Under the pieces are notes generated by a model. It saw only the letters and a list, made by a program, of their open reading frames with translations, was not told the DNA's origin and ran no database searches. From Owenia fusiformis (lineage: Eukaryota; Annelida; Polychaeta; Sabellida; Oweniidae), in the NCBI GenBank assembly GCA_903813345.2, contig CAIIXF020000006.1, positions 8,604,989 to 8,668,988 on the forward strand: 64,000 nucleotides of DNA, in the 5' to 3' direction. Both the position numbers and the translations under genes were made by a program. Below are positions 55,840 through 61,383 of this stretch, one piece after another (the first letter of the stretch is position 1; the number at the start of each line of letters is the position of its first letter).

Positions 55840-58800
55840 TTATCGGCCTTCAACTGGAAACAAAATATAACTTTTTAAGAGTTTGCATTTATATTCAAAG
55901 AACTTGAAAGCATAAAAGGTACTTTGCAAAAAGATATGGCATGAGTTACGAGACTTTTTCATGAAACATTTGCTTCAGATTTGCTCACAAAGAGTTCTAT
56001 TCATTGCACTCTGGGTGCTAGCATAAGAGGTGTCAAAGGGGATCATCATTTACAAATGTTATTTAAAACTTATATCTTTACATTTTAGCAATTCTGAATC
56101 AAGGAAGTAAAGAGTGTGTAGAAATATGTATAACACAATTTATTTATCAAATGTAGAAATAAACTCAATTCAATTTCCACTTCTCACCTTACAGAGAAGA
56201 ATAATGTCTCTAATAATATTCAGAATTATATTTCTACAATGTATAATCTACATTGGTACTTACGGTATGAAGATATGTCAATCTCATCTGGGAGTTCAGT
56301 GATGTTCACTTCAAACCTGTCCTGGACTTCATTGAGAACTTTAGCATCAGTCTCATCAGACACAAATGTCACAGCAAGACCTTTGGTACCAAACCTACCA
56401 GCACGGGCAACCTAAAATGCATTAAGTACAAGATCTAATATTTGACAAACTCTGAAGAGACATTTTTAAGCCTTGTGCGCCCTTTTATTTTTAAAAAAGT
56501 ATTTCAGGTAGACAGATTTTGGGATTTGATAAAAGATATATCATATATTTCTGTTACTTTAGCATTTGCTTCAGATTTACTCATAAAGAGTTCTATTCAT
56601 CGCACTCTGGGTGCTAGCATAAGAGGTGTCAAAGGGGATCATCATTTACAAATGCTGAAGTGGATTTATTATTTCTCGCCAATACTTGGTCATATGATGG
56701 TATTTCCTATCTGGACAAAGATTTGCATAATGCTGGTCCCTTTATTGTGCTTGAAAAATAGTTGTTGTCTTGATGTGATTGTATGTCATTACTTTATGAA
56801 GCTGGTGATTATAAAGTGTTTTCCCTACAAAGATGGGCTTCTCTTACCTATGAAAGCCACTTGGTGTTTAGAATATGAATCGATATAATTGATGAAACAT
56901 CTACTTACTCTGTGAAGGTAAGTATCAGAATCCTCTGGCATGTCATAGTTGAAAACAATGTTGACACGCTCAATGTCCATACCACGACCAAACAGATTGG
57001 TTGCCACGAGAATGCGCTTTGAGAAGTCCTTGAACTGCTGGTACCGTGACAACCTGAAACACAAACATTAGTTTCTTAACCAATCACATTACTTTCTCAA
57101 TGGAGTAAAACTCCGACTTCGAACTCAAAAAAAGTTTAATGTATTGGGTAATTCAGATAAGACTTTGTGAGCTAGTCGGAACAAGTTCTCTTCAATGTGG
57201 CATTCACTCAAAGCGAGCTGGGATTATCCATACATCATTATTACCCAACATACAGAAAATGTTTTTTCTGTTCAAAAATAGCAAGTCATTGTTTAAACCT
57301 CAAACATTTGTAATAGACTAGCATTTAACAAATGAAAGTAATTTAATGACTGAAGCTCATGAACATTAACATTATTTAATGAGATGAAACTTACCTTTCT
57401 TCCTGGGGCATAGCTCTATGTATTGCAATAGCAGGGAAGTTCTGCTCCACAAGTAACTGGGAAAGGGCCACACATCTCTGTACAGACTTAACAAAGATGA
57501 TCACCTGAAATCAGAAACATGAATGGCTTTTTATTAAAAAATATCAACCTGTTTGGGGAATTCATCAATCCTACATTAGGTTTTCCAAATCTTGAAAAAC
57601 GTCTCTTATCAAAACAACTCTGAAAGAATACTTGTTAAAAGTGTGTTAAAAATTGGTTCAGGTGTACAAATATTGCAAAGTATTAGAGATAACTCTGAAA
57701 TGACTATATGATCGTGACTATAACTCAACTGTGTTTTACTTGAAAGATCTTGTACCATGGGTAATTCAGATAAGACTTTGTGAGCTAGTCGGAACAAGTT
57801 CTCTTCAATGTGGCATTCACTCAAAGCGAGCTGGGATTATCCATACATCATTATTACCCATACATTATTATTAAAAAGTCACAATATGCCTTTTGTTTAA
57901 AAATAACATGAAATACTGCACCTGATTGAACTCTAGTACATCGAGAAGTTCGAAGAGCTTGCGGTTCTTCTCATTGTCCTTGAGTTTGACATAGTGCTGC
58001 TGTAGACCGTGGAGCGTCAACTTGGAGTCGTCATCCACATATACCTCCATGGGCTGAAATATAGGGTTATATCAAAACATGGATGCAAGACCCAGAAATC
58101 ACAAAATAACACAAAGTATGAAAACTACAAACTAAATGAAGAGATCTCTTATTGATTTGCTATTATTTAAACAAGGACTGGTTTCAGTTGTGCTTTCTAT
58201 TTTGCTGCCCTTTAAGCTTCAATTCTACTAGAGTTACACTATTTTGACCAAGGTTGACTATTTTATCCAATGCTCAATGAACATGTGGGCAGATTATACT
58301 AAGTATAGGCCACATAAAAGTGTTATTGTTCAGTTATTGAGCATTGTTTGTTAGTGATTATAGCCTGGTGTGTGTTGTGTATTCTCCCCCATGGCGAGTT
58401 AACTTGAAGTTGCCCACTAGTTGTCCCCATCTGGTTAGCGACTACTCGACTCTCCCTTGAGTAAACCACCTGTGTGACTGCCATCAGCTGCTACAGGTCT
58501 CCGAATAACATCTGAGTATGGCCTCTTTTGGAACACCTCAACAGCAACCATGAAGGACCAAGACGACACAAGAAGACACTAACAGACCATAGAGAAGATA
58601 GTGAAGCACTGGTGACTAACTTTATCCACTTTCAAACCAAGACAATGAGTTGTGAACAAACTTTGCAGCAACAGATCGCGATCCTATCCCACCTCGGCGG
58701 TTCCCGGAATGAACCGGATGGGATCTCTTCTTCAGGTATTCCTCTTCTTCTGCAGTATACTGACTGATGAACTTCAATGGAACAGTATTTTACAAGTAAC

Positions 58801-61383: not shown

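Follow-up and report, generated by a model that had tools for sequence, protein, structure and literature searches.

Seven of the eight introns of the DDX39B/UAP56 gene of the annelid Owenia fusiformis each carry one box C/D element of about 100 nt, always in the host strand, and we judge it very likely from the sequence that these elements are intron-encoded box C/D snoRNAs that would guide 2'-O-methylation of 28S rRNA and that were spread by local duplication. They belong to two families, with family A in introns 1, 3, 5 and 6 and family B in introns 2, 7 and 8. The window, which is the whole 64-kb stretch of DNA that was analysed, corresponds to G000:C6:8604989-8668988 of a 498-Mb assembly. 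The host gene in it is complete: its spliced coding sequence encodes a 427-aa protein that matches an RNA helicase entry of Owenia fusiformis (P0003) at 100% identity, and all eight introns have GT donors and AG acceptors. A sequence-only reading of this DNA had placed one C/D element in each of seven DDX39B introns, and the gene model, boxes, stems and strand all agree with it. The features are as follows, in window positions:

55840..61383, minus strand: coding part of the DDX39B/UAP56 host gene, with nine exons and eight introns
60817..60917, minus strand: A1, family A, intron 1
60903-60909: box C of A1
60884-60893, minus strand: D' guide of A1
60878-60883: stretch containing D' TTGA of A1
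60860-60865: box C' of A1
60824-60827: box D of A1
60382..60480, minus strand: B2, family B, intron 2
60461-60467: box C of B2
60444-60455: guide of B2
60436-60442: D' region of B2
60391-60396: stretch containing box D of B2
59714..59814, minus strand: A3, family A, intron 3
58054..59511, minus strand: intron 4 of DDX39B, at 1458 nt longer than any other and alone in having no candidate snoRNA copy
57759..57859, minus strand: A5, family A, intron 5
57845-57851: box C of A5
57826-57835: D' guide of A5
57780-57788: second 28S-like element of A5
57766-57769: box D of A5
57146..57246, minus strand: A6, family A, intron 6, identical to A5 over all 101 nt
56560..56658, minus strand: B7, family B, intron 7, with snR48 as its best Rfam match (37.8 bits)
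55964..56062, minus strand: B8, family B, intron 8, with one G-C to A-U double change in its terminal stem

The snoRNA-free intron 4 contains tandem repeats of 24 nt and 30 nt (window 58917-58982 and 59360-59446). Elsewhere, the plus strand at window 33378-36759 holds two ORFs encoding ZU5 and Death domains, as portions of UNC5-type proteins do; for the first ORF a single relative turned up, an UNC5C-like protein of Branchiostoma. In addition, window 7232-8218 holds an unbroken rhodopsin-family GPCR ORF of 328 aa.

Both families have the anatomy of C/D snoRNAs. Family A (101 nt) is closed by a terminal stem GGGUAAU/AUUACCC that abuts box D CUGA, its interior reads guide CCCAGCUCGCU, then D' UUGA and C' UGAAGA, and its box C, AUGAUGU, deviates from the RUGAUGA consensus in the last letter. 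Family B (about 99 nt) has a stem around GCAUUUG/(C/U)AAAUGC, box C AUGAUGA and box D CUGA, with an interior made of guide UUUGACACCUCUU followed by a non-consensus D' region AUGCUAG; the D' and C' boxes of both families are our own assignments. A terminal stem encloses box C and box D in seven of seven copies, so that the described combination of stem, box C and box D CTGA was found throughout, except that the family A box C is one letter off. Box C, D' guide and box D are invariant in all seven DDX39B copies. Compared without gaps, the cores of the four family A copies are 97-100% identical (6 pairs) and those of the three family B copies 91-96% (3 pairs), bearing out the claim that identity is high in A and lower in B. 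That identity ends at the stems and that the flanks are unrelated was largely upheld too: over 20 nt, the flanks are 15-60% identical in 17 of 18 within-family pairs (15 A pairs, which include the RPL28 and RPS12 copies described below, and 3 B pairs), the exception being A5 against the RPL28 copy, with 80% identity across the first 20 nt of the 3' flank. Between the D-guide regions of the two families there is a complementarity of 10 nt (GCUCACAAAG / CUUUGUGAGC in B8, with a mismatch in B7), which appears as inverted repeats, such as window 55974-56010 against 59713-59749 and 60816-60852.

The terminal stem of family A appears to be maintained as a structure. Among the six full copies (the partial seventh place was omitted), 98.1% of the 54 cells of the nine-pair stem are paired, and five of the nine pairs show changes on both sides. 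None of 500 shuffles reached this paired percentage and two reached this number of both-sided pairs, while the further pair types were matched by 188 of the 500; sliding the stem by 1-3 columns left 33-48% paired. Three of the five both-sided pairs vary in the RPS12 copy only, where the stem is maintained by compensatory changes, and the remaining two lie at the outer end of the stem, in copy-specific flank. The family B stem, with one both-sided pair among three sequences, a value equalled by 174 of 500 shuffles, is not informative alone. The folding energy of the seven copies is ordinary (z of -0.15 to -1.90), which says little because C/D snoRNAs fold weakly.

We then considered how these sequences are distributed. 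Within the 64-kb window, neither blastn nor covariance models built from the copies (R1 and R2) detected other full copies, the remaining matches scoring at most 18.9 bits, just as had been claimed. At DNA-search sensitivity across the 498-Mb genome, the family A query matched seven places, four in DDX39B, two in RPL28 (one full, one partial) and one in RPS12, and the family B query matched three, all in DDX39B; these counts are lower bounds, very common words having been skipped and diverged relatives, such as one in RPL28 intron 1, having been missed. The idea that both families are confined to DDX39B therefore holds for family B and fails for family A. RPL28 and RPS12 were named by matching human protein sequences. 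The places outside DDX39B are:

C6:8683714-8683826, sense to host: full family A copy in an RPL28 intron, 15 kb past the window
C6:8684267-8684315 (L016:5350-5464), sense to host: partial, decayed family A copy in an RPL28 intron, scoring 40.7 bits with a covariance model of the six full copies
C1:25779994-25780092, sense to host: family A copy in an RPS12 intron

A covariance model built from the six full family A copies also detected the diverged relative in RPL28 intron 1 (L016:4001-4086, 26.8 bits). The RPL28 intron with the intact copy is thus flanked by introns with a diverged (L016:4001-4086) and a decayed (L016:5350-5464) relative, which suggests birth and death of snoRNA copies in this gene.

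Such a distribution bears directly on whether the elements could be a short, SINE-like mobile repeat sitting in introns, with C/D-like motifs taken from a snoRNA ancestor. The sharp copy ends, the mostly unrelated flanks and the presence of family A in three genes would fit such a repeat, and the sequence-only reading had named copies scattered genome-wide as the sign of one. No such scatter was found: the at least seven A and at least three B places are very few for 498 Mb, and nine of nine full copies sit on the host strand within an intron of one of three genes (DDX39B, RPL28, RPS12). None of these nine has a target-site duplication (the longest flank repeat is 7 nt and none touches both ends), no A-tail was seen by eye on any full copy, and the stem carries compensatory changes. 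We rejected the mobile repeat, which we regard as extremely improbable, on copy number, orientation and absent target-site duplications. Altogether, boxes, compensatory stem (family A), sense introns, similarity to snR48 (family B) and low copy number support the earlier proposal of a local amplification of C/D snoRNAs, and the elements are best read as intronic snoRNAs rather than a dispersed repeat.

As to how the copies arose, the sharp ends at the stems, the lack of target-site duplication, the clustering of the full family A copies (five of six within about 22 kb of one contig) and the flank shared by A5 and the RPL28 copy fit cis-duplication, the process by which C/D families usually arise according to passages of PMC8178906 and PMC2653536. 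Searching L009, L013 and L014 with DDX39B by tblastn gave no match that would indicate DDX39B exons duplicated along with the RPL28 or RPS12 copy. We infer a route of duplication from these traits: extra copies would come from short duplications between introns of DDX39B and of nearby RPL28, and they may provide a higher guide dosage or be a tolerated redundancy.

Compatible with local duplication of snoRNAs is the possibility that some copies are dead, one or two per family being processed and the others being relics that gene conversion has kept alike. Pointing that way are the redundancy of the copies, the decayed family A copy in RPL28, the altered C'-like region of B8 (GCAAUGA) and the variable distance between element 3' end and 3' splice site, which ranges from 83 to 254 nt (87, 206 and 83 nt in introns 1, 2 and 3; 254, 92, 148 and 110 nt in introns 5, 6, 7 and 8). 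However, box C, D' guide and box D are intact in seven of seven copies, and we hold this possibility to be somewhat unlikely.

We next searched for rRNA targets, as the sequence-only reading had proposed. The scan covered three of the seven copies (A5, B2 and B7), with shuffle controls for A5 and B7. A 601-base rDNA query met two 28S fragments only in the Owenia assembly (L021:1400-1640 and L022:1500-1700), for which reason 28S sequences of other eukaryotes served to test the family A target. L021 breaks off at TTGTTCACC and continues with sequence that is not 28S-like. Eukaryotic rDNA, confirmed by cmscan, was present as contamination in contigs filed as bacterial MAGs and in one filed as viral (L001-L007).

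The family A guide CCCAGCUCGC can form 10 pairs, one of them G-U, with 28S GUGAGCUGGG in five of the five 28S sequences that cover the site (L002-L005 and part of L007, the partial 28S of L006 being left out), and the site is identical in all four full 28S sequences. The D' UUGA of family A puts the fifth base of this duplex on A2946, the snR71/U29 site; a numbering anchored at Um2921 gives the expected A at 2946 and the expected C at both 2948 and 2959. We therefore predict that family A guides the snR71/SNORD29 site (yeast Am2946, human Am4523) from its D' guide. Passages of the literature list the A2946 site with Dictyostelium CD11 (PMC8817022) and assign Neurospora CD27 to both the snR71 and the snR69 sites (PMC2780460); as in CD27, Cm2948 is possibly an additional target of family A. 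In 2000 shuffles of A5, a conserved 10-nt duplex appeared in 4.3% (four 28S) or 6.1% (three 28S), and two single-species matches elsewhere on A5 scored above the proposed target (29.5), at 34.0 (L005 28S) and 33.0 (L005 18S). Matches of family A to Rfam are weak: snoR69Y scored 18.2 bits (E 0.38; threshold 45), TtnuCD4 15.5 and DdR11 14.2, all three having the guide core CAGCUC in common with family A, while the other three of its six Rfam matches (snoR116, snoU13 and SNORD48) have no tie to the predicted target. We take DdR11 to be the same as Dictyostelium CD11. A second antisense stretch, CTAGCTCAC, lies 10 nt upstream of box D (57780-57788 in A5, and likewise in the other A copies) and can form 9 pairs, one of them G-U, with the 28S segment to which the D' guide is complementary; since 42 of 3000 shuffles reach this, the pairing is noted and not relied on.

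The guide of family B can form 12 pairs, one of them G-U, with 28S AGAGGUGUCAGA in L004 and L005; in L002 the duplex is 11 nt long, L007 introduces a mismatch, and in L003 the pairing is broken. Against the decayed Owenia 28S fragment L021, 13 of 13 positions pair, two of them as G-U, and the duplex reaches the base that precedes the D' region. This is the 28S segment targeted by snR48, and the base at +5 falls on Gm2793/Gm4370 in a register that we derived by hand: it precedes G2815 by 22 bases and, in L005, the equivalent of A2946 by 152 bases, L005 lacking one base in the alignment between the two sites. We predict that family B guides the snR48/SNORD60 site (yeast Gm2793, human Gm4370), with Gm2791 possibly as an additional target. 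The site numbers are from a passage of PMC5199042, and a table passage of PMC11542601 equates yeast Gm2793 with human Gm4370 and has no human entry for Gm2791. Similarity to Rfam snR48 (RF00471) amounts to 37.8 bits for B7, 35.2 for B8 and 32.8 for B2 (E 0.093-0.67), and a focused search with the B7 stretch gave an E of 0.0017, the likeness spanning box C to box D. The gathering score of RF00471 is 60, which family B does not reach (37.8 at best), and no match in the window attains gathering level in Rfam; below that score, we class family B as working like snR48 and as a probable homologue rather than as a curated member. In 2000 shuffles of B7, a conserved 10-nt duplex appeared in 6.3% (three 28S) and an 11-nt one in 1.0%. 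B7 gave no conserved 10-nt duplex in the four-species 28S set, and two single-species matches elsewhere on B2 exceeded the proposed target (27.5), with 29.5 (L002 18S) and 28.5 (L005 28S).

The duplexes alone are weak compared to shuffles; the predicted guide activity rests on the right register at known methylation sites and, for family B, on the similarity to Rfam. The sequence-only reading had instead raised an orphan-guide role. On such a view the elements would be C/D snoRNAs that lack rRNA targets, like SNORD84/SNORD117 of mammalian DDX39B, and would work on different RNAs or on the transcript of their own host. That they share their host gene with mU83, that a passage of PMC3349704 gives the targets of SNORD84 and SNORD117 as unknown and that the guide matches are modest against shuffles would suit orphans, as does the fact that the D-guide regions had no convincing target in 18S, 5.8S or 28S among the best three matches per rRNA. 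However, the D' duplex of both families has its fifth base on a 28S methylation site that is known and widely conserved, and family B resembles snR48 from box C through box D. With 28S matches at known methylation sites for both families, the orphan reading was not retained as the main one after rRNA matching and now appears improbable.

If the elements are guides of 28S methylation, as we favour, each DDX39B intron would be spliced out and debranched, releasing the snoRNA, exonucleases would trim the released intron back to the terminal stem, and the trimmed RNA would enter a snoRNP that guides 2'-O-methylation of 28S rRNA. The gene is an annelid example of two C/D families interleaved through almost all introns of one gene, with traces of copies that moved to the neighbour RPL28 and decayed there, and two predicted guides of 28S methylation can be studied here with several natural copies of each. 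It is a new and clean example of a familiar arrangement, and leaves known snoRNA function unchanged.

Among the titles that literature searches listed, none deals with snoRNAs hosted by UAP56 in invertebrates other than Owenia and none with Owenia snoRNAs, which does not exclude that such reports exist. In mammals, DDX39B also hosts box C/D snoRNAs, namely SNORD84 and SNORD117 (U84 and U83), and a passage of PMC1654159 reports mU83 from the fifth intron of BAT1 in human, mouse and pig. The mammalian snoRNAs have been called orphans. No U83 or U84 family came up among the Rfam matches of the Owenia elements, although the library searched may lack them. An annelid joins mammals as having C/D snoRNAs in this gene, apparently different ones. 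According to a passage of a 44-eukaryote survey (PMC3511168), snoRNAs of equivalent conserved introns are not orthologous and drift among broadly expressed hosts, in which case the use of DDX39B in mammals and in Owenia can be independent, and the orphan host role across animals that the sequence-only reading suggested stays a conjecture. A bolder view, which strikes us as quite improbable, is that DDX39B is the sole snR48/U60-type source and the main U29-type source of Owenia, that splicing of this mRNA-export helicase thereby sets how strongly two functionally central 28S sites are methylated and that animals repeatedly recruited the gene for that coupling.

Family A resembles snR71/SNORD29, snR69/snoR69Y, DdR11, TtnuCD4 and CD27 in having a D' guide to 28S GUGAGCUGGG, and it has GAUAAUCCCAGCUC in common with snoR69Y and CCAGCUC-CUUUGA with Tetrahymena TtnuCD4; it differs in its weak overall similarity to Rfam (at most 18.2 bits), its 101 nt and its box C ending in U. 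Family B has the order of snR48/SNORD60 (U60; RF00471), with box C, a 12-13-nt guide to the same 28S segment and box D, as well as the D'-region letters CUCU(A/U)AUG(U/C)UAG, whereas it stays below Rfam gathering, has a shorter spacing between box C and guide and is present three times, in almost identical form, in a single protein gene. That one host carries the same C/D snoRNA in more than one of its introns is well known, as for U14, with three copies in hsc70 introns according to a passage of PMC7277114, and for U58, found in introns 4, 5 and 6 of chicken RPL17 in a passage of PMC2653536. Owenia DDX39B differs from these hosts in the interleaving of two families that are unrelated to each other, the snoRNAs and the hosts being other ones.
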